Shown here: positions 591 through 48,159 of the stretch, one piece after another
How the letters are laid out: each line of letters opens with the position of its first letter
Numbering within the stretch: the first letter of the stretch is position 1
Origin: Capitulum mitella
Lineage: Eukaryota; Arthropoda; Thecostraca; Pollicipedomorpha; Pollicipedidae
Direction: 5' to 3'
NCBI GenBank assembly: GCA_030062745.1
Contig: CP099839.1
Span: forward strand, 27,961,451 to 28,025,450
Length of the DNA: 64,000 nucleotides
Notes under the pieces: generated by a model
What the model saw: only the letters and a program-made list of their open reading frames with translations
The model's database searches: none
What the model was told of the DNA's origin: nothing
Made by a program: the position numbers and the translations under genes

Positions 591-3500
591 GTGAGTACAT
601 GGATATGGACCCGCCATATGGACGCACCGGCGGGTCGCCACCGGTGCGGACGGCCCGCCAGACCGGCCGGCCGGCCGCCGGACGGCAAATATGGCGGCGC
701 CGGCCGACGGCGGAGGGGGAGGGTGACGCCGCAGCGTCACGGCCGGCCGGCGGCCGTGACGCTGCCGGCTGCCTGTTTGTTTTGTGCCGGACGGCGGCCG
801 ACGAAACGGGCCGACCTTTGGCGCGTGCCGCGGTGACCGTTACCCTTCTCTGTCCTCCCGCTGCTCTGTCCGACTTCGTCCTTGATCTTGTCTGAGATAC
901 GACTGAAAAGTGTGCGCACAGAAATGGCTGTCAGCAGTCGTCTGGGAGCGTAGCTTTTACGCAAACGCACAGCACAGTTGCGCCCGCCCGAATCATTTTC
1001 GACGTCCCGTTAGCCAACGTCCTGCCGCATTTAAATTTCCCGTCTGGGAATTTGCGCATTACCCTGTGTGCTGGCTGACATCCTCTCCCGCCCTCAGTCG
1101 TCCTCATCGTCTGACGTTCTGTCCCACCCTCGCACGTCCTCGTCGTCTGACGCTCTCTCCCGTCCTCAGCCGTCCTCGTCGTCTGGCGTTCTGTCCCGTC
1201 CTCAGACGTCCTCGTCGTCTGACGCTCACTCCTGCCCTCAGTCGTCCTCGTCGTCTGACGATGAGGAGGAGGCCGTCTCCGGCTCAGGCGCAGGGGACGG
1301 GGGCGGCCCCAGCCTGCAGGAGGCGCCGCTGCGGAGGCGGCGCGGTCCGCTGATGGGCGTGGACGAGGTTGACTGGGCCGACAACCCGCTCTGGCACAGC
1401 GGGCCGCCCTCCATCGGGGCCCGCGACATCGGCCCACTCCGACTGCCGCTCGACGACCAGGTCAGTGCTGGTGACCTCAGGCCAGTCAGCGTAGTGACCT
1501 CGGGTCGGCCCTCCTAACGGGCGGCACCACTTTGGTGGGAGTCTGATGACCTCAGGTCAATCTTCATGACACGTGGCACCGCTGTGGTGGCAGTCTATAA
1601 ATCTCAGGTTAGCCTTCCTGTTGAGGGATGTGGTAACGTTCTGATAGCTTCTAGCTCCAGCCTTGTACTTACGATTTGGTGACGTTTGGTCAGTCTGGCT
1701 GGCAGTCCTGTGGTGGTGGTCTGATGGCTTCAGATCTGGAGCTGGGGAAACAATCTTGTGAGCTTGAGTCAGTGCGTTTCGACTGTGGGTTATGGGTCAA
1801 AACCGCCGTGAGCTCCTGGAGAAAGGTTGGAATTTGATTAGACTCATGTAACGATTTCGGATTCAAGCGCGGGATTTTGTGCACAGATTCAGTAAGAATG
1901 TTGAACAGAAGCATGAAATGTTGGTAGTGATAAACGTTGGGAAAACGTCAGATAAAACCTCATTTTGACCCTGAAAGTTCGCCTCGGCCCACACACGTGG
2001 GCGTCACAGCGACTCGTGCATCAAGGGATACCTGGGATAGACGCGAGATAGAAAGCGTCATATTGATCTCTTTCTCCCTCCCCTCTTTCCTCTCCCTCTC
2101 TCTCTCCATCTTCTTCCCCCTCCCCTCCTTCCTTCTCTGCCTCTCTCTCTCATTCTCCCTCTTTCATCCTCTCTTTCTCTCTCCCTCCTCTTCCATGCAC
2201 TCTCTCTCTGTCCTCGCTGACCGTCCCACTTTCTCCTCACCCCCGCCGCACGACGCATCCCCTATGCACTGCGTCACACTGCGCCACACTGTGCCGCGCG
2301 CCGGCCGGCCGCCACTCTCATCTCCATCTCCGGCACGCCTGTCGGCCGTAAAACACTCGACTGCCAGCCTGGGCCGTCTCCCTGAGGCCCGTCTCGCCGG
2401 CAGGCGACCACCGGCGGCCGGCGGCTGCCGCCGGCCGAGCCGGGCGACGCCTCGGAGCTGTCGCTGTCGCTGCTGCGGCTGCTGCACTGCTCGGACGGCG
2501 AGCTGATGACCAGCACCCTGCTGGGCATGTCGTCCAGCGCCGAGAGCTGCGCCGCGCTCCGCCAGCAGGGCGGCCTGCCGCTGGTCGTGCAGCTGATCCA
2601 CGCGCCGCAGACGAGTCCGCCGGCCGGTGCCCGGCCACGGCCCGACAAACAGGTAACCGGCAGACAAACAGGGAACAGGCTGACAGACAGATAACCGGCT
2701 GGCAAATAGGGAACCGGCCGACAAACAGGTAACTGTCTGCCTGCCTGTTTTGGGCGGGCAAACAGGTAACCGGCCGACAAATAAGGAACAAGCAGACTAA
2801 CAGGGAACCGGCCGACAGTCAGGTAACCGACCGACAAACAGAGAACAGGCAGACAAACAGGAAACCAGCCAACAGACAGGCAAACAGATAACCGACCGAC
2901 ACGGTGGCAGCCCGACAAACAGGTACTCTGCCAACAAATAGGGAACGGACCGGCAAACGGGTAACGGTCCACACATGGCCAGGGCGTGACAAACAGGTAA
3001 CGGTCGACATTGCGGCGTCTGACGCCCGGTACTGGTGTCTAGTCCACTGTCCACGCGATGGATCACTGCACAGGCTGCTGAAGAACAGTACAAAACACAG
3101 ACAACGACAATGAATAGGAACAGGCTGCACGTGCTATGAAAGTAGATGGGAAAGTACAGAGCACGGACTGTGACGGAGGTGGGAACTGTACACGCACTGT
3201 GAAGGTGGCTGGAAAGCAGAGGACCCGGACCACGGAAGCAGCTGGGAAAGCGCAAGCCACACCGTGACCGTGGATGGGACCACGAAGACCGGCCGTCATG
3301 ACCGGGGAATGCAAGCCGGCGGAACGCACCGGCCGTGCCGACGCGCCCGGCTGCCGGCCGGTGCACGGCTGCTGATGCGGCGGATGTCGTTCCCGCGATA
3401 GCCGTGCACACCTGCCGGCGGCCTTGGTGCCGCTCGGCGGACGTGCGCGATGCATTGCGTCCGGCGGAGAGCGGGTCTGTCGACGTCGCGACGCCACGGT

Positions 3501-6500
3501 GCCGGCGCGCCGAGTGACGCGTCACAACACACCCGCCCGAGGGCGCCAACCACAACAGCGGCGTCGCAGGAGCTACCGGGAACGCTGACATCAGAGTGAC
3601 TCAGGCCGCTCCTGTGTGTTGCGTCCGTTTGGACAGGGGTGGGAATGCTGGCTTAGTTTGATGGCGGCCGATTTAATGGTGCGATGCGGTTTCACGTGTC
3701 GTCCTCGCCCGGTCTGACAGAGCGATTACTCGGTGTAATTAGGCGGCAGGCGCAGGCTGTTGTCCATCCGTGCAGCCGTGTCAGGTTTTGCGCGGTGGCG
3801 TTTCGCCACTTTGCCTCTAGATTTGTGAGAACAACATAAGTTGCTCAGCTCTGACAACTTTCATGCTTAACATTAACCTCGACTTTAATACGCAACATTA
3901 TTTTAATACTTTAATACGCAACATTGCTGTTCGCAAACGATGTAAGCTGCGCCGTCTGCGGTCGGCAATATCTGCACCTTTGAATGAAAACCGCGTTAAG
4001 GCCCATTACCTGTCGCTGATCAGCACGGCATTCTGAGCAGAGGGACTATACTTCGTACAAATAAAAATATAACTTCCCGTCACGTTAGGGACCGATGGTT
4101 TGAAGGACCATTTGCTGGATATTGTAGATTTGTCGTCATATCATGTAATTTCTTCAACAGCTAGCCAAATATCACACGCAGATTTGTCGTACCTTTCATT
4201 CAGCGTCTGATTCACCTCAGTTCGTTCAGTACATGCCTCGCAAAGAGCCAACAAAGTTCAAACATTAGTAGACTTCTGAGCGATCATGAGTGGAAGATAT
4301 TCGTAATGTACGAGTTTTCGTCTGCCTTTACGTTCAGGCGGGCTTCTACGTTTCTGGCGCGCGTGCGACATTTGCTGCAGCTGTGCGTTTCAGATAGAAC
4401 TGTGTACTGAGGCGTCCGAACAGGGCCGTGGTCCGAACTTTGCTCATTTGTATGTGTACCGGGCGTATGCTATTCATTGACGTATGAAGACAGCAAGTAT
4501 GATGGATTGACGTAAGTAGCTGGACACTTTTTTTGAACTTTTCTCAGTGCTAGGCACGCTGGAACATGTTTAAATGGGGAATGTTTCTGAAAAAGACGAG
4601 GCAAATATGAGGTAAGGCATTGCTTAGCAGTCCGAAGGTCAGGCCTATTTCGTGGTGATTTTCTGACCAACCGTAAATGATTATCTCTATTAACAAAGCT
4701 ATATAATGAATGAGGATGCTGCATGAGTGTTAATTTCAAGATCATATAGGCCTATTGATTTAAAAAAGCTGAAGTCCTTTTCACTTTGAGAAGCCACAAA
4801 CCTTTTGAATTTTTAGGAATGCAGGCATCTGATTTTTAAAAGCATGCTTTCTTTATATTTTTGAATGTGCTCAGCCTTCTGACTCCTTACCACCTGCTCA
4901 AAAGCCACAGGCTTTGTGCATGGTAACATGCTGCAGGCATTCAGCCTGTTCACATACCACAGCCTTTCCACATGTTCACATTCTGCAGGTTTTGTGCATG
5001 CTCACAAGTTGCTCACTTGCAATTTGCTAACAAGTTGCTGGACTTCTGTTTGCAGGCAGGTTGCAGGCTGTTGGCATGCTCACGAGCTGCAAGCTTTTTT
5101 GTGATCACTATGTGGGCTTTCTTCATACTCACAAGCCACAAACTTTCTGCATGCTCACTCATTGCAGGCATTCCACTTGCTCACAGGGTGCAGGTTTTTT
5201 CTTTGCTCACAAGGCACAGGGTTTCTGCTTACCCACAAACTGCTTGCTTTCCATATGTTGACCAGCTGTGAGCTCTCAACATCTCACAACCTTCAGGCGT
5301 TGTGCCTGCTGGCATGCCTACGCTTTCTGCATGCTTACAAGCTGCACGTTTTGTGCTGTCTTATAAGTTGTAGGCTTCCTGAGTGTTTACGCACATGCTG
5401 CAGACTTTCCTCAAGCTTGAGGTCAGAATTTCAGTATTTTTCAAGGTTTTCTGATCTGAGGACATTTCCCTTGCAAATTTTTGAAATGAGTGACATGAAA
5501 TCTTTTGTTTTCAAATGATGAAAAAACAAGTCATGCATTGCACATTCATCGAAGTCCTCCATCATAACACTGTTTAATAAGGATTTCCACAGTAAGTCAC
5601 ACATCAAGATTGTCAATCTACTGCCAATTTGGAACATCATTACCATGTTTATGAAGTCTCACATCAGGCTGTAGCTGTACAGGTTAATCTGAATGTGCAC
5701 ACTGTAAACTTTTTTCAATATTGGCATAATCACATTGCAATGGTACACCTTTGGTGGTATTCTCATTTTTCATTTTGCTCTCATGGATGTCACATGTGGA
5801 AAGTAAAACTCTAGCCTTGGCTGCTCATAAACTGCAGGTTTTATGCATGTTCACAGTCTGCAGGCTTTCTGCATGCTCACAAATTACAGGTTTAAATGAT
5901 TATAATTTAAATAGTGATTTAAAGGATTAAATGTATGATTGACACAGATTGCGGGTTTAAATGATTAGTACTGTGTTACAGAGCCATGTCAAAGGCAAAG
6001 CTATCAGTTTCTTGAAATGTCGTATGTAATAGGCTTTCGGTAAAATGTGTGTGGTTGAGGACAAGGTGAAAGGACAGTTAAGTATAAAAAAAATTCCTAC
6101 ATTATATTGGTTTGCATAATGCCACTCACAAGCGCTACTTGGCAACTCGCACGCTTGAACGAAGCTGTAAACATTGTCGGTCTGGCCACAGAATGAACGA
6201 GAACTTCCCGTCGAGGCAAGCAAAGATGGAGCTTGGCTGGACCTCGCGTCAGCTCTGCAAACTCTGCACCGGACGCCATCTGACGAGAGAATTCGAGTGA
6301 AGATATTGGGTAAGCCACATATTTAATATGATAGCGTACAGTCCAACGGAAGGTATCGATCACCAACAAGCATTGCAGTGAGGTTACTAAATAATGCACT
6401 CCGAAGTTGTCATTCCTTCGTCTTGATTTGCCAGGTTTTTCGCATATTGGGTTTGGCGATTTTTCGCATTTGTACAGGAATCAAATACTTTCGAATTAAA

Positions 6501-9500
6501 ACTATCAATAAGAGAAGACTTCCAAATAAACTGACGTGGTCCGGAGGGGAAGATGTAAACTTCATCGTTGTTGCATTTTCTGTGTAACGAGCCAGCTGAC
6601 ACAAAGCACATGTTTGTGCTCTTGTTGCGTGTTGTTATGCCTGGGGCCTAACTGATTTGTATCTATTAGTGCGGTCACTGTCTTGACACGCTTTGATTCC
6701 CAACGTTTTGCGTTCCAGGAGATGGTGCCCAGGCGGGAAAGTTCACCGTCTTTACAAACTTCTCCATCACTCTTCTCTACGAGACTCTCCCTCACATGAA
6801 GAAGCCGCTTGTGATTGGGACTGGAAAACTGAGCGAAAATTATGAAAACTTAAGTGAGCCTGTGAAGAACCTAAACGACCAAATTTTTTTCTGTGCAGCG
6901 CGATGGCTTGATCATTGATGAGCATCAACAGCTGTTCGACTTTTACCTTGGCGGTGATTACAAATTCTTTTTAATTGTGTTAGGTTTTAACGCTGCCCAT
7001 TCCACTTTTGCTTGCATTTACTGTCATGCTTCCAACGCGGACCGGTATCACGGAGATCACAAGCGTACACGTACGTCGACAAGACGTGTGTGTGAAAGAT
7101 CCAGGCGTAGTGCGACCGAGTTTGGTGACGGCTGTGCCATTGGACCGCGTGGCAATCGACACTTTGCATCTGCATCTCCGTGCAACTGACAAACTTTTTC
7201 AGTGTGTATTCGATCACGTTCATGGCCGCGCTGAGCGTGAGCAGTTTGTAACCGCTATACAGAGCAGCGTTACAACGTGGGGCAAATTCGCCGCAGGAAA
7301 GGAAAAGATTGAGACTAGCGGGCTATCTGCGTCGGACAGGGACGGGATCCTTCGCGCACTGACAACAACTGACGCTTTGCTTGAGTGTGCGTCGTCTGAT
7401 GTAGGAGGTAAGAAACTCAAGGAGATACTCGCGGAGCATTGTCACCTGTATCAGCTTGTCAAGACCAGTAGACATGCGTTAGGTCTGAAAGAAGCCGGGA
7501 AGAAATTTATCAGGCTGTTCCTTGAAGTTTTCCAGAAAAAAATGGTAACATCATGCCTACATATCATGTGCTTTCATGTTCCAGAATTAGTGCAACGATT
7601 GGGCGTACTAGGTGCTTTTTGTCAGCAGGCTGACGAAAAACTTAACCATGACATCGCGGCAGGATAATTACGGTGTTCCAACTACAAAGATGGACCGCGT
7701 CAGGTCATTCAAAGGCACTGCAGGAAAACGCTGTATCGTACCCGTTAGCGGGTACGATACAGTGTTTTCCTGTGTTTTCCAGCGTTACCCGCTAGCGGGC
7801 ATGTTGTAGCGTTTTCCTGTGTAGTCGTTTTCACAGATGTGACGTTCGTTTGACTCGTGCCAATACAATCACATGAGCTGGATTGATTTGATGTGGTGTT
7901 ATTTGCAGCGAATGCGACTAGCAGTTTATTCTGATCAAGTCTGCACTATCGCACATATACCAGCTGATTATTCTCTGAACCACTTTTTGGTGGTCATATA
8001 CTCTAATTATGACGTTCTGATGAACATTTCTTGGGATCGGGTGATTATTTCGCAATGTTCACTTTCTGCAACATGTTTGCAATCATTGCAGTCATAGGCT
8101 GCCATATATGGTATATTATAGGTACGTATGTGTTCGCCATTGTTGATGAACGCGTTTACAGCAAACTTCAGTTTGCCCTTCATATCTAGACCATTCTGCA
8201 ACATTGCATAATCTAAGTGCAGTCAATTCTTTGGTCGCACACCTTTTGCAATTCACATCTGATGTTGTGAAATTATAATGAAGACGCGGTGATCGAAATA
8301 ACCTGGTAACTCTTGGCCGCACCAGCGTTTCAAACAATTTTCGGTTTTTGCAATGCATTTGCAGCAGTTGCAAACAAATGTCCCTTTTACTTCGTTATCA
8401 GCGCGAACATGTTTATGTGCCATCATTGATGAGCAATGAAAATCTCAATGTTAAGTACTAGATGGCAGCTGATTTTAGGCCGTGTTGCAATATTGCAGAA
8501 AGCATTAAACACTACGCTCGCACATATCTTGTGCACTTCGCAGGCATTCAACGTAGCCGACTCTTGGATGAAAGCTCTGCCAAAAAATACACAGGATTAT
8601 TCAAGCCATTTCATAAATTACATGCATATCATCGGGATTGCTATTGAATCTACTGGCTGTTGCACGCCAGTTGCACATCTTCCAAACGAATCCACATTGT
8701 GTGCTCACCAACGTCTAAAATTTGTGTTATCTCTTGTTAAAGGTGTGCAGTCTCTGACTGGTCGTATTACATCATCGAGCACACATTTCACCTATTTGCA
8801 GGAATGAATTGCAAATGCAACCCAACTTGGCCCCTTAAGTTACTGTAGTACGACATCCCGGATATTTTTCCCAGTTTCCTCAGATATCGCCCTACTTGAA
8901 AGTGTGCGTCGAAATTTGAAAATGGTTACACGGCTAAGATGAGAGCTAGATATGGTCAGGACGCGCCGAAATTTCACGGATCTCCTATGTTAAAATCGGC
9001 TTGTGTGCAGTTCTTTCATGCAAATTGGCCTCTTAAGTACCAACGCTACGGCCACAACGAGTAGTGCATGTTATAGCGAAAGCTTTGTTCTACTTGGGAC
9101 CAGGCGTCGAATTTTAGTTTTCCAGGTTAGTTAGTAACTATACTGGTTACACCGCGATTTCAGGCAAATTTCCCTATGGCGGCCTTACGCTTAGGGCCCG
9201 ACCGGAACGCCAAATGAGCGGCTCGGTCCGTAACGAGGCCATTTGTGTTCATTTTTTAGCACGCCGGCCTAATCGATTGATTTCTTCCTCCTCTGTCTTT
9301 TCTCTGTCTAGCCGATCGACGGATTTGAGACATGCCCTAACGTTTGGTAGGTCACTGATCTTTCTTTGTTCTGCTCATTTCCGACTAATCGCCGGTCTCT
9401 GTCGCTCCGCAGATCCGCTCTTCGGCGTCGCACGCGTTGCACAACCTGGTGCACTCGCAGGGCGACGACAAGCGGGCGCGGCGGGAGGCTCGCGTGCTGC

Positions 9501-12500
9501 GCCTGCTCGAGCAGCTGCGCCAGTTCACAGAGGGCCTCTGGCAGCGGATGGATGAACAGGGACACGGCATGATCATGGACGGTACGTCGCCGTGCGCGAC
9601 CAAGCTGGCGACTTTTGTACGGAAGCGGCCAGGGCCTTTGAAGAACATTTTGTTACTACTGTTCTTTCGTTCGTCCGTTTGTTTGTTTGTTTGTTTGTTT
9701 GTTTATTTGTTTCTTTTTGCCTGAAGACTCGATCTGAGATATATGCCGTACGTCTGTGGCAGCTGCATATTATTTTTCGATCCAACAACGCACTCAGTGT
9801 TGCATCCAAAATCATTTGAGTGCCAAACACGCCATTTATTGAAGTGCCCAAAGACCATTTCGTTATGAGGACTATTTTTGGATTCATCTAGGCTGCATGC
9901 TTGCCGCTCTATGACCACTGACTCGGTGTGCTTTTCAACTTCTCCCAAACAACACAGATAAGCTTCAGTTGCTCTGGTCTCGCGCATAGCCAGAGCGAAA
10001 TTCCAATGAAATAATCATAGTGTTGTTTCTAAGATGCTTATTGTGCGTAACAATTTACGTACGGTTCACTTATCATTTTGTTACACGTCATGAAGTGTAT
10101 TGGGAAGGTCGCTGTCCTCAGAAACATCATTCCAGCAATCGCTTCTTGCCGCCGGTTTTGTCCAACGCGACGCGTTCCGTGAGAAGCCGATGCTAAGCTG
10201 GGGGCGAACGTGGCGCACGATCTGACCTGAGTCGTTGTTGACTCCGTCAGACTCGATGGACCAACACCCGGTGCCGACGGTGGTGGCGCTGATGAAGCTG
10301 TCCTTCGACGAGGAGCATCGCAGCGTCATGTGCCAGCTGGGCGGCCTGTACACGGTGGCCGAGCTGATCCAGACCGACCACGAGGCGCACGGCTCGGCCA
10401 CGGCCCACCTCACCTGCAACAGCACCCGCAGGTACGGTCCGTCTGGTCGTAAAGCAGGGACTCCGTCTGATCGTAAAAAAAAACAGAGTCTGCAGGTATG
10501 GTCCGTCTGACGTAACGCAGCACCCGAAGTATGGTCCTTGTGACCCTAACGCAGTGCCGACTGGTGCGGCACCGCTGGCCTGGTTAACGCCGACTCGATC
10601 TGCTGTATTTGCCATATCGACGGCTCATATGAGCTTCAGAAACCAGAGCAGGAGCAGTGTGGTGGTATTGCACTGCTCGTCGAAGCTCTGACTCGTCAGA
10701 ATCAAGTAAATTACTTGCACAAAGCACCTTTGACAACCAACGCGTCTTGACGCACCGTGGTCACTACTCAGTCGTGCCTTTTATTTAGCTAAGCACCACA
10801 CCAGCTCATCAGTCTGAGATCCCGGCGCGCTCCGGCTGCCCGGGACGGTTCCCTCTGCGGCTGGGACGCGGCCTGTGACCTGCCTCTCTCTCGCCCGGCA
10901 GGTTTGCAGGCATGACGCTGACGAACCTGACGTTCGGGGACGGCACCAACAAGGCGCTGCTGTGCGGTCTGCGCGGCTTCATGAGGGCACTGGTGGCCCA
11001 GCTGCACTCCCCGAATGAGGATCTGACCCAAGTGAGACGACACGGGACGGGAGAGGCATGGGATCTCAGCTGCGGCAGATGAATCATGCGCCGTGACGAT
11101 GAACCGTGAAAGAACCATGCATGCCTTTGGGTCCGCACGGAATGCGGATCAGCATGGTTTTGCGTCCAATTCTCAGTTGGCCTGGGTAAATGTTGCATTA
11201 CCTGGACGCCGCTTTGCTCCGCTGGAACGCGACGTTTCCGAAATGACGCGATGAAACGCCCACCTCAGCAAGCGGGTCAATACAAAACGGGGATAACCTG
11301 CATTCCATCGGGATCCAGCGGCATATCTGGTACCAACCGTCGACCAGACTTCTGCCTGGTCAGGGCCGGCGCACTGAGGAACCTGTCGTGGCTGGCAGAC
11401 TGATATTCCGACCCCTCGCCTGACCTGCCCGAGGCCACGACCAGAGTTCCAAGAAACCTCTCATGGGAGGGGGGGGGGGGCGGTTCTGGTGTTCTGACCC
11501 GTCGCCTGACCTGCCACAGGTCACGGCCAGCGTGCTGAGGAACCTCTCCTGGAGGGCTGACACGGCGAGTAAACAGACACTACGGGAGGTGGGGGCAGTG
11601 ACGGCGCTCACCCAGGCGGCCATGGCCGCCCAGAGGGAGTCCACACTCAAGTCGGTGCTGTCGGCTCTGTGGAACCTCTCCGCCCACTGCGGCATGAATA
11701 AGGTCAGGGCTGCGGCCAGCGGGCGGCAGAACGCTTGCCAGCCGTTGAGTAACGATCCGAAGACCCCGTATGACGTTGAAGGCTCGGCACTACACTTACA
11801 AAACATACGTGGAGTTTCACGCATGCTAATTGAATTTCATTGTGATATCTAATTTAACTGATAACGATTTAAATTGTGTTGACGGTGATGTAATTCGATG
11901 ATTGTGATTTAGTCATATTGACAGTGTGGTTGCTCAGCTGATGGCCCGGTTTCAGGCCGACATATGCGAGGTGGACGGTGCCCTTGCGTTCCTGGTAAAG
12001 ACGCTGACGTACGAGTCGCCTTCCAAAACAACGGCGATCATAGAGAACGGCGGCGGAATCCTCAGGAATATGTCAAGCCATATCGCCAGCAGGGAGGATT
12101 ACAGGTACCAAACGGCGCGCAAAGTACCGCTAAATGAATTCTGGATAACAGATGCAAAGAAGCCATTTGTGTTGTTAGTTGCGCGCCTTTGCGTGCGCCG
12201 TACATCTCCCACAAAGCGACTGGTGCCTGGGCTGAAAGTCGTTCGTGACATTAATCTGTTGCCGCATCCTGCATCTGCAATATCAAATTGGTGGCCCTGG
12301 TTCTGTGGTTACTCCGCCACACCGTAAATAACGGCGGATACCGTTCCGCTAAAATAAAACGTGCGGTTTCCTGCAGTCACGAGCAATATCCTTCCCTGAC
12401 CGCTTCGCTCGTTCCGCAGGCAAATTCTGCGCGAGCACAACTGTCTGCAGACGCTGCTGCAGCAGCTCAAGTCTTCCAGCCTGACGATCGTCAGCAACGC

Positions 12501-15500
12501 GTGCGGCACGTTGTGGAACCTGTCGGCGCGCTGCGCAGAGGACCAGCGCACGCTCTGGGAGCTGGGCGCCGTCTCCATGCTGCGCTCGCTGATCCACAGC
12601 CGGCACCAGATGATCGCCATGGGCAGCAGCGCCGCGCTCAAGAACCTGCTGGCGGCGCGGCCGGAGGGCGTGCCGCCGCCGGAGAACGGCGGCGCGCCCA
12701 GCACACCCGGCCTGCCCGCGCGCCGACTGCGCGCTCTGCAGGCCGACCTGGCCGCCGGCGGACTGACCGAGACCTGCGACGACCTGGACTCGGCGGGCGC
12801 CGGCCGGCCGGAGGCGCGTTTCCTGGCGGCCGGGCCGGAGCCGGCCGGCGGCGGCCGCGTGCCGCGCTCCGACAGCCGCGACTCGGTGCTCAGCTCGCTG
12901 TCCGACCCGGGTCTGGAGCGGCTGCGGCGGCGGCCCGGCGGCGGCGACGACGCGCGGCTGGCGGCCGCCGTGCGCCAGGTGGCGCTGCGCGCCGGCGTGT
13001 CGGAGCTCGAGCTGCGCCGGCTGCTGCGGCGGCCGCGCGCCGACGGCTGGACCGGCTCGCTGCCGCGCGTCTGCGCCGAGGCGGCACCGCGCCCGCAGCC
13101 CGGCGGCGGCGACCGGCCGGCCGACGCGGCCGCCGAGGAGGAGGAGGACGCCTCGGACGGCGACACGGTGCGCGTCTACACTACGGACAGCTCGTTCAGC
13201 GTCATCAGCACGGACAGCTCGCTGCGCAGTCTGCGTGAGGCGTCGGAGACGCGCCGCCGCGCCGCCGCCTCCCAGGAGACGCCGGCCGCCAGCGTGTCTC
13301 AGGAGACGCCCGGCGCAGCCTCCTCCCAGGAGACGCTTGGCCCGGCCCCCTCTCAGGCGGTCCCGGCAGCGGGTCTCGATGAGGCGTCGACGGCCGGGTT
13401 CGTGACGGTCAGACGGGATGGATCCCCGGGCAGCGGCGGCGGCTCCTGTACCGACCAGAGCTCCGGCGTCGGTGAATACAGGTCAGGATACAGATTCTGC
13501 GAGGTCGCCCCGACGTTGTGGGAGGAAGAATGCCCCAGCCTCTGTGTTTTACTGACGTCGTCTGCAGCCAACTGCGGACACCTGCCATGCATTTTGCTAT
13601 TCTTCTGGAACGTGGAGGTGCTCTGCGCCACCTCGAAATACCACGCCAGCAGCCTTGACTGCAAATGGCGCAGACGATGGCGTCAGCGTTTTTTAGTACC
13701 TTGAGGACACTGCCCCGAAGAAACACCTATGAATATTTATACTGTTAGATCAAAAATGTTCTGACATGAGACTTAGATCTATTCCTCATTTCAGTTCGAA
13801 TGTTTGCTTTTTATTCTTGAGTTTCTAGGAACTGAAATGATAGTTCATGTCTTCATTCACTAGAACCATTTCGAGTCTATGGTTATGGATTACCAAAACA
13901 CTGCTTATTTTGTCTGACATGAAATTGGCCCCAGACAAGAGTTGTATTGTTCCGATCTAGTCGCACCGTCTTTGCTTTCCTTTGTATTGAAATCAGGCGA
14001 CGGAATTCCGCGCGGCACGCATTAACACTCGTCCTGCACAGCCGGCAGATGAGCGACACCACGTCATCGAGCGCTGTACCGGACTCGGACGACCAGTCGA
14101 CAGACTCGCCGCCGCCGCTCAGGAGGGCGGCGCCCGGCCAGCCGCCGGCCTCCCCCCGCCAGCTGCGCCGGCTGGTGTTCGCCGGCACGCCCGGCCGGCT
14201 GCCGCCGTCGCCGCGGGCGCCGCGCCGCTCCGCCTCCGGCGAGCCGGCCGCCGCCGAGCGGTCGCTGCCGTCGCCGAAACTGCCCCGTCGGCCGGCCTCT
14301 CACGAGCTGGCCGGCTCGTGCGGGCCGGCGCCGCCCTCTCCGGCGTCGGCCCGGCGGCCGGTGGCGCGCGCCGCCACCGCCTCCCCGTGCCAAACGCCGG
14401 CCTCGCCGCAGCCGCAGCGCAGGTCGGTCTCCGGTGAGCCGGCGCGCTCTCCGGACCCGTGCCCGGCGTCTCCGCGGCTCCAGAGGAGACCGGGCTCGCG
14501 CGGCGAGGCGCGGTCTCCTAGTCTGACGAGGTCCTCGCCCGGACTGCCGCGTAGGCGGCCCGGTTCGCCGCAGAAGAGGGCGGCAGACACTGCAGGTGAG
14601 TCAACGTCGCCGCAGCAGCTGGAACGTGAAGGACACCCGTTTGAAATGGTTCTTGGTCTGAATCTATGTTTTCTTGTCGTCACTTTCACCCGTATCTTCA
14701 TAGCCAGATCCTTTTATAGTACAGAAAGCCAGACAACGGTGCCATCCTTCAGGTTTTGTTCTTGCAGCTCACGTGGACGCCATAATCAAGGATACCTCTA
14801 TGTCTTAGCTGGATGCTCATCCTACGTAAGCAGCATTCTCATTGCGATAAATTGCACGATACCGTTCCCGAATTCTTTGGGTTTTAGCGCGGTGGTGGTA
14901 ATATCAGTTGGAGAGGGCAAGGGGTGGGGAGAGCACAGCTACTCTGTCAAGTTCAGTGTTGCACGAAAATGAACAGGTTTAGCCATTGTGACGATGGAAA
15001 GTTTGGAATAATAGAATACTTTGGAATAGTTCGCGTATCCCAGTCCATGCTGACATATCCTATGCACAAAGCTCCATCTACTTTCGCCGTGCTGGGATTC
15101 TACTAAAACCTCATCTGCGTTTCACAGATGGCACTGCCTCCATATCGTCACCCTTGGCCGGCAAAGCGGACGATGAGACTGGCATTTCTCGCACCGAGTC
15201 AGCCGCTGCAGCCAGGTGGGTCCTGGCATGTTGACGTGTATTTGTTGATTCTCGCTTAAGTCTCACGTTCGCCATGTGTGGTGAGTCAGGTCCGTTGGCT
15301 GGACAAAGAAACTGTGAGCCAGCAGTGTTTAAGCTGGCGACACAGTAATTCTCAGTATATATGGGGTTATTGTATTCCGTGTAATAGCGTACATACCGCT
15401 GCATATTCTGCCAAGTCAAGCCCGTATATTCCAGTACACACGCTTAAGTGCTGGTGTAACATACGAGATTTGTGCACGGGCAGGGTAAAGTAATCGGCTG

Positions 15501-18500: not shown

Positions 18501-21500
18501 TTGGGAGGCGGCGCCACGTTAACCGTCGGCGCAGCTCGGGTCAGGAGTGAGCTGTGGCGCCGCCGCCGCCCTCCGTCGGTGCCTGGACGCGCCACTGCCG
18601 CCCCCTTATCGATCGGCGCCCCGGGGCGGCGGGACGGCGACGCCCCTGCCGTCGGAACGGCCGGGGGGCAGGCTGACCGGGCTCGATGGTTCGGCCGGCC
18701 GCTCCCTGCTCCCTGTGGCCGGAAATCCGGCGGCTGTCTCCGGGAGCGGAACAGCGTCGGCTCCGACCCCGCCGGCCCCGCCCGTCGCCCGGCCTCGTGG
18801 AAACTCGGCCGCTGCCGACTGCCGGCGGCGGCGGCGGCGGCGGCGACGGTGGCGGCGGCGGCCCGGGCGCCGGCGATCGATCCGGTCCGCGGCGGCGGCG
18901 GTGACGCGCCGCGACCGCCGCCGCCGTGCAGGCGCGCTGACGCCAGTCGGCGCCGGCCGCCACTGACAGCGGCGTGCGTCTGCCGGCAGGGAGCCGCCGT
19001 CTGCCGCCTGCCGACGCCGGGCGGGCAGCGGCCGGGCCGGACACAGGACAGCGGCGCCGACCCGGCGCCGGCCGCCGCCGCGCCGGCCGCGGACGCCGGC
19101 GGCCGCCAACCGGAGCCGACCGCCGGCGACGACCAGCCGGCCGGAGTGATGATTCAGCGGGACAAGCCCAAGGTAGGGTCGCGCGGCCGGCGCCCTGCGC
19201 CGTGGCTCGGATCAATAGGGGCCGGAGGTCGGCACTCGTCCGACTTCCCTCGCGGCGCGCCGGATTCGCCGTCGGTGCGGACAGCCTCCACGGTGATTTG
19301 TAGCCGGTGGTCCGGCCCCACGGCCGGGCCAGGCCATCAGGCGGGACGAGCTGGCGTCGCAGTGCAGAACTGACTGACTAGGTGAACTGTCGTGCAACTT
19401 GAAGAACTGGTCACCTTGGGACCGAGCTGGCTCGGCATTATCAGGCAGTCACTCATCCCGCCGACGTCGACTTTGTGAGCGTGAAGGGCACTCGACGGAA
19501 GCCATAAAGCCAGGTTGTTACGCTCGTCCGTATGACTGTCTCGGAAGGCGGCATTCTTATCACTTCGTTACCCACGGGACTTACGCGAGACTGCGAGGAA
19601 GCACGCGATGGGAGATACTGCCTCAGACCAGTCAGCCTTTGCTCACGGTTGGCCGAATTTTTGCTTCCCGGCGCTATAAATTACCGGGACCGCACCGCGC
19701 CCGGGCGCCCCGCTCGCCGGGGAGTAATTGGCGTCCGAAACCATTACACGTGTCGAAGCGCTAACAGCCCGCTCGCCAATAACCGGCCAGTTCGATTAAC
19801 TGGAGTCGGACGGCGAGAGGAATGGCTGTGCCGCGGTGTCGGTTTCGTTGATATCGACGACCGGCGGCTTTATGGGCCATTGCGAGCCCGCGGGAGAGCA
19901 ATTCAGTCCAGCGGGGCACCGTCACCTAAAACAAAGCCAGGCGGGTCTCTGTCGTGGATTTGGACCATGTTGCCGCCTGCTTCTTCTCATATCCCGCAAC
20001 GGCTCTGTAGGGAAATGAAAGCTGCCATGTGCACGGGCTGGTAAGGAAGCCCTACAGCACAGACGCTTGGGGGCTCCGTGGTGGCTGCGTGCGCGCCGGG
20101 CGGCGGGTGACTCAGCATCCCTGCTGTTCACGCCGCCGTCTCAGACCACGATAGCGGCGCAGTAGCGGCACCAGGCGGAACAGTGCCGATAACAACGGGA
20201 GATGCGATTACCATGCCGGCCCACGGAGCAGGAACTCGACAGATCCGGAACTCGGCCGGTTTGAATAAATCACCAGCCTCGATTTGCGGCCGGGATCATT
20301 GATTGGGCAATTCGCCGAACCGTGTTCAGTGAGTGGCAGGCAATAGCCCGGAGAAACAGTTATATATTTTCATCCAAAGCTTGTTTACTTTCGTCCAAAG
20401 CTGTACGCCTTAACTTTGGTTCCGTGTCTGTTTAATATGCATGATTACGAACTTTACCAGCCAGGAATTCTAAAACCTGAGAAAACCACCACTGCAGTTC
20501 CGTGATGCACTGGCACGTTTCCGGTCGAGCCCATCTGCTGGTGTTGTTTCAGGAGGGCCGCTCGGGCCGGCCGGCCGTCTCTCGCCTGCCTCAGCGTGTG
20601 CCGTCGGACAGTTCTCCGTCAGGCCGCCCGGCTCAGACCTGGAGCGTCAAACACTACCACAGGTAACAGCAGTCAACCAATACTACCGATAACTGGATTC
20701 AGCTGCCGCTACTACTTGATAACAGGAGTCAGCCGTCACTGCCACAGGTAACAGCAGTCAGCTGCTGCTTCTGCTGATAACAGGAGTCAGCCACCAATAC
20801 TACCTGGAACAGGAGTCAGTCGCCTCCATCGCAGGTAACAGCAGTCAGCCGCCAGTACTACTGGTAGCAGGATTCAGCCGTCACTGTCACAGGCAACAGC
20901 GGTGTCAGCCGCCAATACTACTGGTAACAGGAGTCAGCCGCCACTACCACAGGTATCAGAAGTTAGCTGCCAGTACTACTGGTAACAGGAGTCAGCCGCC
21001 ACTACCACAGGTAACATCAGTCAGCCGCCACCACCGCAGGTAACAGCGGAGTGGGCTGCCGTTACCAGAGGTAACAGCAGAGTCAGCTTACACCACCACC
21101 ATGGGTAACAGTGGAGACATCTGCGGCTATCACGGTTAACAGCGAAGTGCCACAGGTCAAGGCTGTGTCAGCCACCGCTGGACTCTGCAGCGCTGCTGTG
21201 GCAACATTCCGTACCACGACGCCATCCGTGCCTGGTGCAAATGCCAAACGGCAACTTCCGGCCCTGCGGCAGTTGTTGTTCAGGTTCGGCTGGGTAACGC
21301 CCAGGACGTCATTGGCATTAGAGTCATTCCGAAAGTGCCTGCCCGGCATTGCTGAGATCTGTCATCAAAGGGAATCGCGCGTCCTACTACTCGAAGCAAC
21401 GGCAACCCTGTGGAATAGCGAAAACCAGTAGAACCGAATTGGGACCAGATTCTCACTCGCAGGGCAGGAAGCATGCCGGTATGCACTGGAATCGCTGGTA

Positions 21501-23249
21501 CGCGCCAGATATCGCCAACCTGACCTGTGACCCCTGCCCCGTCCAGGAGAGGACCCATCCCCTCCCCACAGTGGGGCCTGCCTGCCGGAGGTGTGGTGAC
21601 TCTGACACCTCGCGTGCGGTCCGAACGTTTCATTAGTGGAGCCGGGGTTTACCGGGAGCCCCGCCCTGTGGCCACATCGATTTCTGCCGTCGTCGACCGC
21701 TGTCCGCAACAGAGCCACGTATTTCTACCGGCTGTGACCGAGAACTGTGACGTCAGTAGCCCGTCACCTGCAGTGATTTCTGCTGTCCGGTCGCAACGCC
21801 GGCACCGAGTGCTTTGAGTGCAGGGGCCGGGGGATTGTCCGCGCCCACGGCTGTCGCACTGTGCCAAATGCTTATATGCACTTGGCATGGTGTTTCACCG
21901 CGCAGTTCGATACGATGCCAACTTTGGCCATTTATCAGTCTGTAAGGTCCTTGGTCGCCTGCCAGCTGCCAGCTGAGCTCTTCCAAGTTTGGCATCGTCA
22001 GCTTCCGTGCGAGCCAGAAAATGTCGGTGCTTTTCGCCGGATCCCGACATTCTTTCGTTCACCGCGCTTTATTTCAGCATCAGGGGACGATTTACGGTTT
22101 TGCCGTTTGACTTTATTCGGTATTGGTCTTAGTTGAAATCGCTATTAAAGCCTCCAGTGTTCATTTATTTCATCCGTCAGAAATGGGCCTAGTTTGGTAT
22201 TCTGCAGTCTCCGCCCAGAGCGAGAATAACACGGTCCTACCAGCATCTGAGTAGATTTCAAACGCACCTGCCCTCCGGAGATCAGGCGACGGTGCTGGTT
22301 CCAGACGCTCGGAGCGTCAGGCGGACCTGGGCGACGCGGCCGCCGGAGATCTCGCCCTGGAGGACCTGGAGAGTCCGGCGCCTCCGCCGCACAGGGCCAG
22401 GACGGCCCGGCTGCCGCCCGAGTGGACCGCCGCCTCGGCCAAGGAGGCCCTGGCCAACGTCGGCCAGACCAGAGGTGCGCCGCAGAGCGGAGCTGTGTTG
22501 AGAGGACGATCCATGTTTGAGAAGAGGCTGTGGATGCCAGTTTTTTCTATGGCGTTATAGCGGAGGCATCTGGCCTTTTCATTGATCCATGCGGCGAGCT
22601 TTACGCCAGATATCTTGTGATTCGTCACTCTAGAGCTTTCATTTATTGGATTTTTGCTACGCCTGAATTAGCTTTACAGTGATATCACCATGTAATGATG
22701 CATTCCGTCGTGGAAAAATGCGGAAGATGTTCAAAAAGGAACACACTGAAACCTCGTTGTATTGACATCAGGAACCGAGCGACAGCCCCGAAAGTCCGGA
22801 GCAGACCGCCTCGTGCCGTGATCCCATGTGCGACTGCTCAACTGACCTCGCTGCGTGTCGGCAGAGTCGGCGAGAGAACGGGGCCGGCCTGCCGAGCCGC
22901 GGGCCGCCGCCGGCTGGGGCGCGCGTCTGTTCGCCGCCGACGGCACGCCTCTGTCGCGCAGCAGCTCGGTCGGCTCGATCGGCGTCCACTCCGAGGAGGA
23001 GCCGAGCAGCGCCGACGACGAGGACGCCCGCCTGCTGGAGCGCTGTATCCGCGCGGCGCTGCCCAAGAGCCGGTCGGAGGGCAGCTGCCTACGGCGGCCG
23101 CGCGCGCGCCGCCGCCGCCGCTCGCCGGTCGAGCCCGGCCGCGCCGGCTCGGCCTCAGACGACGAGGCAGCCGAGGCGGCCGAAACGGCCGAGTCGTCCC
23201 CCCAGCCGGCGGCGACCGAGCCGCCGCCACCGCCGGCGCAGCCGGTGCA

Positions 23250-23280
<31 letters not shown>

Positions 23281-26244: not shown

Positions 26245-26616
26245 GCGGGGCGGCCGGGGCCAAACTGTGTGATACTGCGGTCGGCCGGTACGTGGGGAGG
26301 ACTCGCCCGCGGCGGCGGCGCACGGCCTGGACGCGGTGGAATGTCTCGTGTCGGCGCGAGGCCTCGCTCCCGTTTCGGTTTCGCAGCTCGACGTCGCGCT
26401 GTCGAGCTTGCTTTCGGAACCCCAGGGGAACTCCAACCATGCAGTTGTGTGTCTTGTACGATATTTTGAACCCGAAGAAGGGCATTTTTTCCAATAGATG
26501 CTCACCTAGCCTTCGCGTTCCGATGACGCGGTTATGGACTTGATTTTTCAGCATCGTTCGCGGCGTACTGCCGCTGTGTATCGACTCTTCTGCTCGTGGA
26601 AAGCAAACTATTGCAT

Positions 26617-26622
26617 AATAAA
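26617..26622 (+). terminator. Probable APC polyadenylation signal AATAAA
   Basis: A canonical AATAAA lies about 370 nt after the APC stop codon, the first I see downstream. A GT-rich stretch (GGTCTGTCTGG) follows at about 26660, as expected for a downstream element. Confidence 0.55.
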
Positions 26623-26644
26623 CGCGCAGCTCTCGTACATCAAG

Positions 26645-28329
26645 CATCTTTGAACGGATCTGGTCTGTCTGGCCCTGTCAGAAAACGAGAACAAGCAATA
26701 CAATATCAAGACTTTTTCCTTCATTTAGTGCCATTGTCGACGTGATATCCAGCTCCTGTGTTCGCGGTAACGTGATCGACGTTCCTCTTGCAATGACAAT
26801 GAAAATGGCCCTGGGCATGCCAACCGCAAGAACGCACAATGCGTCTTGCGTCTCTGCCCCGTTGTCCAGCCTCCCCGGCATCACCAGCCGTCAACCGTTA
26901 CAGAGCTGCAGCCCATTTGTCAGAACGTCGGCCGCCTGGTAGCGGTGACGCCGCGATCTCTGATAGTCCCGGGCGGCCGGCGGCTGTCTGCCCTTCAGAT
27001 CCCTGCGCGTGCGAGCCGGGAGTTCCCGCTCCGACTCCGCCGGCCAGCCCACCGCCACGCACACACCACCGCGCGCCGCTCTGTTCTGCATTTGTCTACG
27101 GTCGGCCGGACGCCGCCAGTGTCCCGGCACCAGCCAGGCCTTTGGCAGTATGGGGGCGGCTACGGGGGCCGCGGGCGCCGACCGTCATACGGCCGGCACA
27201 AGCTCACGCACGAGCCACAGCACCGAACAACCACACAAACAGATCGGCCTGGGGCACCGCCGCAACCGCAACAAGGGCAGGGTCAAACCCGTTGGTAAAA
27301 ATCGGCGCAGGCAAGGTTAGACCTCAGCGTACAAACAGGCGTCAGTTCGGGCGAGGCCCGCTCATACTCACTACTTCACATTGGTTATTGGGGATGGGCT
27401 AGGCCCGTTCACAGGACGACTGGTGCGCATCTGACTAATACTTACACGAGTATTAGTCAGATAAATAGTCTGACTAATACTTGCACGAGTTATTCGGCAT
27501 CAATCACGTCTGGTCGTGCACAAATTCACAAAAATCCACGCTCGGCTAAACGTGAATTACAAACGCTGTGTATACCAACTGCCAAAATTCACACAGCGAC
27601 CAGATCGAACACAGGAGCCGACTCTTCCTATGGTACACGCAAACGTACAAAATCCACCTGCCATGGTTGCCCGCCCATCTCACAGCCAAAAGGCAATGGC
27701 GTCGCAGACTCCCTCGAAAGGTGATCGCAGACAATGCTGATTACACTAGATTCAGAACAAGAAAAACAAACGCAAACGGATGGAAAGATGACTTAGCTGG
27801 TTGCGAATATTCCATCAATAGACCCCCCCCCCCAAGTAGCCGTGACGAAAATCATCAAACCCACAAAAAGAAACCAAATACAAAAATAGGGCATTAACAG
27901 GGAAACAGACAGCGCAATCTTGTTCATGCAGACAGCGCGAATCATTTCAAACTGGTAAGCATCGTGGTAAGCACCCCTATCCTAGACATTGCTGTGCACC
28001 AAATTGCCACGTACGAATGCCTTTACAACCGTCAAACCCGTCTGGCGTTTCCTTCCCTGGTCAGGTACAAAATACGCGTATCAAACAAGCAACCCAATTT
28101 CCCTCGAGAGTCGCGTAACACCATGCGGTTCCGCAGGCCGGGCTGCAGCCTCCCGCAACGTTCAGTCAACGCAGTTCCAATAACTCTGGTCATATCAATA
28201 CTCAACGGTCGACGCCATTCCTCTAGGCCACGGGTGTGACAGGTGTTGGGCGCCGGACGGCATCTACCGGTCCGCAGGACGCACACGCCGCCGTCCCACC
28301 GACGAGTCCCTAACGCCGACCTCCGGCGC
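26645..28329. other. Convergent intergenic region between APC and the zinc-finger gene
   Basis: No gene seen. It contains a perfect short hairpin at 27431-27460 and a C-run at 27823-27833. The poly(A) site of the minus-strand gene should lie here, but I see no clear AATAAA complement. Confidence 0.5.
27431..27460. repeat. Perfect 12-bp inverted repeat with a following direct half-copy
   Basis: CTGACTAATACT and its complement AGTATTAGTCAG flank a TACACG loop. A further partial copy (CTGACTAATACTTGCACGAG) starts at 27470. Confidence 0.85.
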
Positions 28330-29399
28330 TCACGGCGGCCGCTGGGCGCGGCACTGCGCCGACATGCACGCCACCACGTTGTTGCGCAAGTTGTCGAACA
28401 TGGTGGAGAGGCCGTCGAAGGCGGCGTCGCCGATCAGCTGGCGCAGGTGGTTCTGGTAGCTGGTGAGCTGCGCCGGCCGCTGCGGGCCGTGTTCGCCGTC
28501 GCCGGGCCGGTGGCCGTACGGATCCAGCGCCGCCTGCCGCCCGCCGGCCGGCGCAGGCAGCGCCCCCTCAGGCGGCGGCGGCGGCTGGTGCGGCGCGTGG
28601 CCGTACGGCGGCCGTTCGTCCGTCGGCGACGGCCAGTCGTCGGCCGGGTACCGGTGGATCAGCTGCGCGGCCACCGGCGGCTGGCCGGCCTCCAGTCGGA
28701 CCGGCTGCAGCTCGGCCAGCCGGGGCTCGTCGGCGCCGGCCGGCTGGCAGAACTTAAGCACCGAGCCGCGCCGCGCCGGCTCCAGCCCGACCAGCGGCCT
28801 CTGCGGCCACGGTCGGGCCGGCGGCGGCGGAGGCGGCGGCTCACCGGGCGACGCGCCGGCCAGCAGCAGCGCCCGCGTCTCGCCGGCAGGCTCGTCGGCG
28901 GCCGTCTGCCGGAGCCCGTCGGCCGGCCGATCGACTGCCGGCTGCTCAGCCGCCGGCTCTCCCAGCTGGCCGCCGGCCGGCTGGAGCAGCAGCTGGCCGT
29001 CGGACGGCTGGAGCAGCAGCTGGCCGTCGGCCGCCGGAGCCGCCGGGTCAGCCGACCCGGCCTCGGCCGGACCGCAGACGGGCAGCGGCACCGGCCGGCC
29101 GCCAGCCGCAGGCTCCTCTATCACCTGCAGGTCGTCTTCGTCCGCCTCCTCGACCGGCGCGGCGAAGTCGTGCGGCCGCAGCTCCGCCGCCGCCGTCGCC
29201 GCCGCCGGCGGAGGCGCCGGGCTGTCTCCCGGCCCCGCGCCGGCGTCGGCGGCGTCCGGTGCCGGGCCGTCGAGCGGCCGCCGGATCCTCTGGCGCGCTT
29301 CATCCCGGCTCAGGCCATGCGAGGCCGACATGTGGCGCGCCAGCGTGTCCAGCCGGCCGCTGGTCACCCGGCAGAACGGGCAGCTGAACTCCTTGTCCT
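28330..29399 (-). CDS. Zinc-finger gene terminal exon: last finger and disordered tail
   Basis: The acceptor is CATTTCAG, phase 1. It encodes EFSCPFCRVTSGRLDTLARH and MSASH (last C2H2), then an acidic/Pro/Gln-rich tail with a tandem DGQLLLQP duplication near 28980-29040. The end contains LTSYQNHLRQLIGDAAFDGL and STMFDNLRNNVVACM, a helical segment that could be an interaction motif. Stop at 28330-28332. Confidence 0.88.
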
Positions 29400-32300
29400 C
29401 TGAAATGACCACAGGCCGCAGTTTTGAGCCGGAACACAGAACAGACACAGCCGCGGACCGCGTCTCAACGCACGGTGAGATCACAACAGCAGTGTATATC
29501 AAACGAATCGTCAACTGCCGCTAACGAAAGCAGTGTCCCCATCTGGTGGGCGGAAACATAAGTAGTGGTGCCAGCGCTGACCAACAGATGAGGAAACTGA
29601 AACTCCAAATCCGATTGTATCCAGGTCAACGCACTCACCATGACGGGGTAAAAACGCCTGAAAGCGGCCACATGCACGAATGAACGGAACACGAACAGGC
29701 GATGGTGGTATAGTGGTGAGCATAGCTGCCTTCCAAGCAGCTGACCCGGGTTCGATTCCCGGCCATCGCAAATAATCGTTTTGAAAATTACCCAAGAGAT
29801 CCTGAAAGCACCCTCTGCCTCTTATAACATAAGAACCTTCTTAACGTCGAGACGCGGCCGTAGATTTTTCGCAGATACTCATCGCGATATCGTCGGAGAC
29901 CATGCCCAGATACTACATAAGAGGAGTCCAGCGGTGGGTTGTTATTCAGCCACTGGTCTGCTGACTTCTGGTCTGACCTATGACCTTGACCTTTAATCTC
30001 CCTGACCCCACCTCTGGGCTCTGCCTATTCTATGTATTACCCTCTGACCTCTGCCTGCTGACCTGTGACATCTCCCCTCTGACCTCTGGCCTCTGCCTAG
30101 TAACTTCTGGCCTCTAGCCTCTGGCATCTGCCTGCTGACCTCCGACCTGTGACCTCTGCCCGCTGACCCCTGACTCCTGCCTGACCGGTCTCTGCCCCGT
30201 GACGTCTGAGCGGCGGCTGACCTGTGTGGATGCGCTGGTGGCGGCGCAGGTCGGAGCGGCGGGAGAAGTGCTTCTCGCACGAGGGGCACGAGTGGCGCTG
30301 GGCCGGCCGCGGCAGGTCATGGCACTCCCGCAGGTGCTGCGCCAGCGTGGCCGGCGTCCTGTACAGCCGCGGCTCCGGACACGCCGGACACCGCTCCTCG
30401 GCACTGTCTGCGGACACCGCGGACACTGAGCACCTCCGGACACACCGGACACTAAACACCTGCGGACACCGCGGACACTGAGCACCTCCGGACACACCGG
30501 GCACCGCGGACACTGAACACCTGCGGACACCGCGGACACTGAGCACCTCCGGACACACCGGGCACCGCGGACACTGAACACCTGCGGACACACAGGATAC
30601 CGCGGACATTGAGCATCTCCGGACACACCAGACACCGCTCCTCGGCACTGTCTGCGGACACCAAGGACACTGAACACCTGCGGACACAGGATACCGCAGA
30701 CACTGAGCACCTCCGGACACACCGGACATAGCTCCTCGCACTGTCTGCGGACACCGCGGACACTGAACACCTGCGGACACACCGGACACCGCGGACACTG
30801 AACACCTGCGGACACACAGGATACCGTGGACAATGAGCAACTCCGGACACACAGGATACCGCGGACACTGAGCACCTCCGGACACTGGACACCGCTCCTG
30901 CGCACTGTCTGCGGACACCGCGGACACTGAACACCTGCGGACACAGGATACCGCGGACACTGAGAAGTTCCGGACACACAGGACACTTAAGTCAGTGAAC
31001 ACACGAAAAACAGACGCCGAGCATCTCCGGAGATATCGCTTACTGCAGTCACTGACTAGCTCCGGACATACCGGACACTGCGGACATCAGGCACCTCAGG
31101 ACAAACCGGCCACCGCGGACAGGGGCAGCTTCTGGAACAAGCGGGATGTTGCCCCGGCACGATTTAAGAACGACGGGACCTGTATTTCAGGACATAAACA
31201 CTTTGTATGACGTAGCTGACAGAGTCCACCTGCGCATAAGCCGGGTGTCGGATCACATGCGGTAGTCTGCCTGCCCCTGTGCTGGACAGGATCAGGAAGC
31301 TGCAAGTGTTGCCTTGGCACTATGAACCACAGGAAAACATCATCAAATCCACTTCATATTATCACGGGCGCATCCGAAAAAATGCCAGAAAGAGCCAGCT
31401 TTTCTTCGTGCACCCGTGTTCAACAAAAGAGGACATGACCGCAAAATCACCACACCCAAACCATGCTTCAGCAAAATGAGCCTCATGCAAAGATGTGCGG
31501 GGCCAGCGCCGCTGCTTCTCCTCCCTCATTTTCGTGAATTTGAATATACTGCTATCGCAAGACAAGAATGCTCACGTACTTGTAAAACGATCCCTACCCC
31601 ACCTTTCAGAGGTTCTTTCACAAAGAAATCCGATACAGTCAAATCTCGTTACTATGCCACCCGTGGGGACCGAGCGAAAGTGGCATAGTAGCGAGAGTGG
31701 CATAGTAACGAGGGTTTGTAAAACGGCTTTATTCTCTCAAGTTACCCATCAGCTCAACCCAAATCTCTCAAGAATCGTCGGCTGGCGCATCTTCTTTCGG
31801 CGGATCTCGTGCATCTCGTTGTCTAGCCGATCGCACGCTTGCATCACACCGGGCTTCCCCCTTCTCTGCTGCATGAACTTCCGGACGGTGCTCCATGCGC
31901 AGCATCTCCTCAGCAATCTCCTCCAGCGTGAAAGACCCGCCAGTCGCGAGGCGCTCGTCGGCTTCGAGAAAGTCACACAGCTCGATCTCCTCGTTCTCGT
32001 GCAACTTTTCCTCGGCAGGCAGAGCTTCCCAGATCTCGAGCAGCTCAGCATCCTCTGGCTCAGTTTGGATCTCCTCTTCGATGAACTTGGCCTTCGCGAA
32101 ACAGTTCCTGATCGTCGACTCGCTGACCTGCTCCCAAGCACGCGGGGCGACGTGTAGAGCGTCGAACAATGTGAACTTGAACTCCTTTCCCTTGTCCATG
32201 GCCTCGAGCCGGAGGCACAGCAGGAACTTCTTGTAGTGGCGCTTGAGGCTCTCTATGATTCCCTGATCCATTGGTTGAGAATTGGCTGTCGTGTTTGGTG

Positions 32301-47580: not shown

Positions 47581-48159
47581 AAATGCAAACCTTGATCAGT
47601 GTGCCTACATCGGCCTTTGCAATGTCTTCAACATTCCGTGGAAATATACAACATGGGACAAACTGACTTGTTGGGTCATCTAGAAATGTAAAATGGACGT
47701 CACATGCGTGCTGCTGTGGTACTCTGAGTTTGAAACTACAGAACTGGGGCCATTGCAATGCTTTTTGTGCCCTGGGCTCTTTCAATGTGTCTTATTTTTA
47801 AATCTCCGCGTCAAATGGACCAAGAAAGATGTATCGCACGATATGTTGTAACAGGGATCAAATTTGACTCAGTACATGGCCTTGACCTTATGCGGCCTTT
47901 AGCCAGGTGGCACATAAAACTAGAAATTAAGTTGCGAGGAACATATTAACACGTATAATTTAGTTTCGATCTGCTTTCCATCGTAGTTCGGCAATTCTGG
48001 AGAAAGTGGTCCCTTTTCGTGACTGACCTCACCTGTGACGTCATCAGCGGGTCAAAAGTAAAAAAGTGTGTAAGTCACCGAAACGAAACGTTCGGCGCTA
48101 TCAACTGGCGTTCGAATCAGCCGAATCGAACTATTGGTTATCATACCATTGGTTCTTGA
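47307..48159 (-). repeat. Right terminal inverted arm of the fold-back element
   Basis: Reverse-complement partner of the left arm. Differences seen are single substitutions plus one or two 1-base indels. Confidence 0.9.

Follow-up and report, generated by a model that had tools for sequence, protein, structure and literature searches.

Minisatellites at exon-intron boundaries of a barnacle genome and their bias towards 5' splice sites

The window analyzed here is a 64,000-nucleotide stretch of the barnacle Capitulum mitella (C1:27961451-28025450, where C1 is contig CP099839.1; positions without a contig are counted from the start of the window) and belongs to a 477 Mb assembly of 16 contigs of 18.3-45.5 Mb. 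It carries an APC gene on its plus strand, identified by Pfam matches to APC_rep and Arm (SAMP stays below the cut-off) and by tblastn with a human armadillo stretch as the query, and these homology anchors place the armadillo exons at 2458..13200. It also carries, on the minus strand, an exon of a putative zinc-finger gene, the zf-C2H2 match of which falls below the Pfam cut-off. A first-pass annotation had claimed that tandem arrays begin at exon boundaries of these two genes and re-copy the splice site in their units at six places. To evaluate this, a 24-mer was taken round each of 19 junctions of the window, the adjoining 400 bp towards the intron were searched for its best copy, and this copy was compared with 500 dinucleotide shuffles, so that p=0.002 is the lowest value attainable. 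Copies better than in any shuffle turned up at six of the 19 junctions (p=0.002 each), precisely the six places named: the donors of APC exons 3, 5 and “14”, the acceptors of APC exons 2 and 7, and the zinc-finger acceptor. For APC alone this amounts to 3/9 donors and 2/8 acceptors. With copies sought in the same way, the test was negative for the donors of APC exons 1, 4, 6, 7 and 8 and for the acceptors of exons 4, 5, 6, 8 and 9; the exon 3 acceptor, at p=0.046, is counted among the junctions that did not beat all shuffles.

The six cases differ widely in appearance. The donor of APC exon 3 (first intron base 2653, the exon being supported by tblastn) opens an array of 19-bp units at 2642..3010, which ends at 2880 by the tandem repeats finder (TRF) and at about 3010 by unit alignment; 14 positions in it match the junction at 16/24 or better, and GT is retained in 9 of 19 units. 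A similar array of 29-bp units, delineated by TRF and unit alignment, occupies 20652..21110 behind the donor at 20663, with 11 positions at or above 16/24 and GT in 11/16 units; the “exon 14” in front of it is putative, as it was defined by eye from an open frame without homology support. Behind the exon 5 donor (10432, placed by tblastn; copies within 10420..10545), for which three copies had been claimed, the test finds a single position (19/24 at +52, its donor lying at 10496); by eye, a third and weaker copy can be made out near 10530. On the acceptor side, a 36-bp array found by TRF and unit alignment covers the exon 2 acceptor at 1075..1260 (4 positions at or above 16/24), with CCTCAG| present in 4/5 units. 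Its 36 bp make up 12 codons that are open in frame, so that, judged from the DNA, splicing may use any of the acceptors in the array. The exon 7 acceptor (11520) is preceded by two copies (11340..11540; 2 positions) that comprise the acceptor together with the start of the exon, RNLSW being legible in both, and tblastn accordingly returns three rows (11347-11400, 11416-11466 and 11502-11717). As both upstream copies are decayed (ALRNLSWLAD and RVPRNLSW versus VLRNLSWRAD in the exon), the original can be told from its copies. TRF matches of 66-82% were obtained for the window arrays, and an assembly artefact is an unlikely source of them.

The zinc-finger array is compound, lies at 30408..30986 on the minus strand immediately upstream of the acceptor (first exon base 30407), and holds copies of the exon start, two of which reach 16/24 (best 23/24). 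Its period had been put at 12/24 bp, a figure that has to be replaced, given that TRF reports 26/35/61 and 164/224 among others. Three weaker cases had been named in addition. One of them, an array of 33-bp units at 52717..52980 on the minus strand seen by TRF and unit alignment, is indeed donor-like, with CAG|GT kept in 6/8 units, and it coincides with a genome-wide cluster of the donor motif at C1:28014210-28014348. The other two, the APC exon 2 donor (p=0.71) and the zinc-finger donor (p=0.35), show no copy beyond what shuffles produce within the 400 bp.

We consider it probable that these arrays are minisatellites of the type described as “mirages” in amphioxus, that is, local tandem duplications across an exon-intron boundary that subsequently grew and shrank within the intron. 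In both, the repeat spans the boundary, splice signals lie inside many of the units, and the sequence and length of the unit differ from gene to gene. According to the sections of the amphioxus papers that were available (PMC3087553, PMC3902484), mirages occur in Adh3, in the globins BflGb6 and BflGb9, in troponin C and in PGBD5, at donors as well as acceptors, with units of 10-72, 150-160, 60 and 108 bp, and are unstable in copy number although splicing is normal. What sets the barnacle arrays apart from these accounts, as far as the same sections go, is the phylum, the fact that a donor-biased excess was measured genome-wide, and that they are known here from the DNA of one assembly. Cephalochordates are the sole taxon named for mirages in that material, which perhaps does not define the class, and the present host is no cephalochordate: among 627 candidates for Chitin_bind_4 in the assembly, 150 matches were scored, many of them clustered. 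We take this cuticle family to mark arthropods.

Whether the phenomenon extends beyond the window was addressed in two ways. First, the whole genome was searched, independently of any annotation, for triplets of the donor motif CAGGTRAG, meaning three copies in a row separated by gaps of 4-34 or 35-65, with a small number of control motifs: the motif read backwards, CAGATRAG (in which a single base destroys the donor) and the acceptor-like TYTNCAGG. At the shorter gaps 935 triplet rows were found versus 105 for the reversed motif, and at the longer gaps 1116 versus 90. Single copies differ only 1.48-fold (33,212 versus 22,494), so that the excess per single motif, counted in rows at the shorter gaps, is about six-fold. 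CAGATRAG produced 66 rows in 15 clusters (its reverse 29 rows), at 22 single copies versus 33 for CAGGTRAG in the gene sample described below. Clusters were counted by hand from 100 of 935 donor rows, 100 of 105 reversed rows (which form 25 clusters) and all 66 CAGATRAG rows; on C1, C2 and the first 1.85 Mb of C3, these give 23 clusters for CAGGTRAG, 2 for its reverse and 1 for CAGATRAG. Positions of the long-gap triplets come from C1 alone (100 of 1116 rows). Donor spacings of 23, 28, 31, 35, 44 and 52 are not multiples of three, and the arrays in question are thus no simple coding repeats. The counts are independent of exon annotation, and individual clusters may lie elsewhere than behind an exon. 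A very large one, at C1:4794772-4796793, consists of 45-bp units and contains at least 40 triplet positions. In contrast, triplets of the acceptor-like motif show no comparable excess (829 versus 640 reversed, 1.30-fold, at 119:82 single copies in the gene sample).

Second, we turned to genes outside the window whose exons are anchored by homology. Ninety stretches round myosin, kinesin and tyrosine-phosphatase exons were merged into 65 blocks (249 kb), the exon rows being taken by hand (myosin 84/86, kinesin 50/129, phosphatase 56/112). Rows with stops or a long gap inside the blocks were excluded (kinesin C5:23031607, C5:10239055 and C3:1035433; phosphatase C1:21382329 and C4:17522446). Against 2000 random placements of the 78 non-exonic arrays (148 exons, 122 donors, 133 acceptors), arrays cover position +15 of 8/122 donors where 3.1 are expected (p=0.0115), and mean cover from 0 to +200 is 7.2% instead of 4.1% (p=0.012). 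An array extends across five of the 122 donors, and one more donor is followed from +13 by an array whose units hold it; the units measure 23 bp (17 copies) in a myosin gene, 38 bp (3.6 copies) in a kinesin gene, and 15, 36, 55 and 61 bp in phosphatase genes. The first-pass statement that arrays begin exactly on the boundary is therefore too strict, for of these six arrays, all of which carry the donor, five begin in the exon, 5-60 nt ahead of the boundary, and one begins 13 nt past it. The 133 acceptors behave as expected by chance under the same placement (2 versus 3.0 covered, cover of 3.5% versus 3.6%, 0 versus 2.1 spanned). The cover, spanning-array, re-copy, unit-score, GC and intron-gain tests used a set of 147 exons, which lacked phosphatase row C5:24154205 and had one start (C4:4140975) off; correcting this left the placement outcome unchanged.

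Outside the window the arrays thus favor donors and not junctions generally, being in the sampled genes ~1.5-2.6 times as frequent as expected at 5' splice sites or immediately behind them. The recurrent tendency that the first-pass annotation had read from the window is borne out genome-wide for donors and finds no support at acceptors beyond the window, and a genome trend of arrays towards acceptors can be discarded on the grounds of both the TYTNCAGG triplets and the 133 acceptors. The way of calling acceptors has some influence on the latter outcome, since a stricter set of 44 shows 3-9% cover over the 120 bp immediately upstream of the exon.

That dependence is one of several points that weigh against the mirage reading with its donor bias. 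Inside the window acceptor cases are as numerous as donor cases. Five donors are spanned from inside the exon where 2.1 are expected (p=0.062), and among the eight with cover at +15, two have arrays starting at +5 or +11 that contain no visible donor copy. At p<=0.05 the 20-mer recurs for 12.5% of 120 donors, compared with 6.7% of 565 intron and 6.0% of 585 exon points; 20-mers taken from +120, however, are re-copied about as often (10.8%), and at p<=0.005 even more so (7.5% versus 4.2% for donors), and the re-copy test therefore does not single out the donor. Donor scores of the units are only weakly oriented (7/79 sense versus 4/79 antisense at p<=0.05), while acceptor scores at the same level favor the antisense strand (10/79 versus 1/79). 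Finally, GC content matters. Minisatellites cover 4.5% of the non-exonic DNA in the blocks, and this cover climbs from 0.8% at 45-50% GC to 13.9% above 70%.

It is conceivable, then, that GC-rich introns are simply full of minisatellites, some of which are tolerated at junctions, and that the dense cases caught the eye. The GC-linked cover, the spanning test taken on its own, the re-copied 20-mers from within introns and the mere 3/9 APC donors with copies all speak for such a chance overlap. On the other hand, it does not readily accommodate donor-motif triplets that are 9-12 times as frequent as those of the reversed motif when single copies differ so little, nor the cover at +15. Moreover, GC accounts for part of the donor excess and leaves the rest in place (7.3% seen versus 4.8% expected after GC standardization). 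We regard chance overlap as rather improbable, though it is the rival to be taken most seriously.

If the arrays are indeed mirage-type duplications, their bias may be explained as follows. A duplication running from the last exon bases into the intron would be harmless, because the exon-proximal donor would stay intact, and the later donor copies could decay neutrally. A short duplication at an acceptor, where the signal extends over tens of bases, would alter the spacing of branch point, pyrimidine tract and AG, and would mostly be selected against. The pull of donors above the intron background could be mutational, in that the first 100 bp of the sampled introns are GC-rich and G-skewed (GC 0.598, G-skew +0.13), which may favor slippage or R-loops; alternatively, the constrained first unit may serve as a lasting template that prolongs the life of the array. 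A stronger version, which we put forward only tentatively, would have 5' splice sites act as the birthplaces of minisatellites in this lineage, with a sizeable share of introns passing through a multi-donor state; in that event the donor segment would be duplicated by events linked to transcription or splicing, such as R-loops forming over the G-skewed beginning of the intron or breaks at the meeting point of polymerase and U1.

The first-pass annotation had gone further and seen in the arrays a source of redundant splice sites. Were they kept because repeated donors make splicing robust or regulate it (as redundant U1 sites), the AGGT core of the units ought to outlast the remainder. Some arrays look that way: in the myosin array GT is present in 16/18 units and the core is better preserved than the rest, and the 52.7 kb array has its 6/8. 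Yet among seven donor arrays the core is higher in three and lower in four (core/rest 0.79/0.80, 0.78/0.86, 0.91/0.89, 0.93/0.85 for myosin, 0.88/0.90, 0.95/0.98 and 1.00/0.91), and in the APC exon 3 array GT has been lost from 10/19 units. We consequently find redundancy as a kept property very unlikely. The phosphatase array on C3 is nearly uniform between units and might be an assembly artefact.

A last possibility, likewise raised at first, is that the arrays are traces of introns gained when AGGT segments were duplicated in tandem (the Rogers model). The units do hold AG|GT, the accessible parts of the amphioxus papers and of a study of human genes (PMC2812944) propose this route, and in 6/53 introns the end of the exon matches the 3' end of its own intron beyond the 5% level set by mismatched pairs, where 2.65 are expected. 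Against this, the mirrored comparison of intron start and next exon exceeds that level in 1/53 introns, and the intron that houses the exon 3 array, 6.7 kb long, ends in an acceptor that does not resemble the unit. APC intron 6, taken up as a candidate because its 3' end might copy the end of exon 6, found no support (p=0.50 and 0.76). With no clear footprint of a duplicated exon, intron gain strikes us as highly improbable for these arrays. Nor do they belong to a single transposon or satellite family, a point on which the earlier annotation was right: unit lengths of 15, 19, 23, 29, 33, 36, 38, 55 and 61 bp are unrelated between genes (15-61 bp in the genes outside the window), there is no common unit sequence, and the spacings vary.

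The further remark that no described genome is known to be so dense in such arrays proved wrong in kind, as amphioxus mirages and human paralogue repeats are comparable, although the sections consulted give a genome-wide density for neither. The human case concerns segmentally duplicated genes with variable internal tandem repeats of ~30-bp units, some at an exon-intron boundary, which differ between recent paralogues and reportedly sometimes cause novel introns (PMC2812944); the barnacle arrays are likewise minisatellites at junctions but lack a clear novel-intron footprint. The amphioxus globin paper also cites a study of human introns arising from tandem arrays (PMC1783408). The AGGT model, in the part of a review that we could consult (PMC4974935), is illustrated by ATP2A1, by 24-bp AGGT repeats in fission yeast and by the potato RdRp. 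These too are tandem AG|GT copies in genes, whereas those of the barnacle follow existing donors within introns and, again, leave no clear trace of a new intron. Another crustacean, Daphnia pulex, shares intronic tandem repeats, units above 8 bp being rarer in introns than elsewhere, and the accessible text of that paper does not contain the word “splice” (PMC3152781). A search of the open-licence literature returned no report of junction repeats for any barnacle. What is new here is the phylum, together with the bias towards donors across the genome, the latter not appearing in the parts of the amphioxus and human accounts at hand. Should donor-seeded arrays be common in an arthropod, mirages would be no oddity of amphioxus, and their donor bias would separate two ideas, namely that junctions merely tolerate repeats as noise and that repeats arise at them. 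Each array also offers a ready set of near-identical competing donors, hence a natural test of first-donor choice.

Several other features were seen along the way. A minus-strand Tc5/pogo-like transposase (DDE_1, HTH_Tnp_Tc5) lies at 31673-33422; two short tandem repeats resembling each other, at 31673 and 33341, are possibly its terminal repeats. Rfam finds plus-strand tRNA-like genes at 29699, 33588, 34042, 34733 and 62609, and three of these five score 63.6 bits alike and perhaps represent a dispersed tRNA or tRNA-derived repeat, and a 189-bp unit is repeated about seven times at 46240-47597. Beyond the window, one exon of the myosin heavy-chain genes (profile ~377-436) exists in two versions on C14, three on C15 and four on C16, which recalls the mutually exclusive relay exons known from arthropods.

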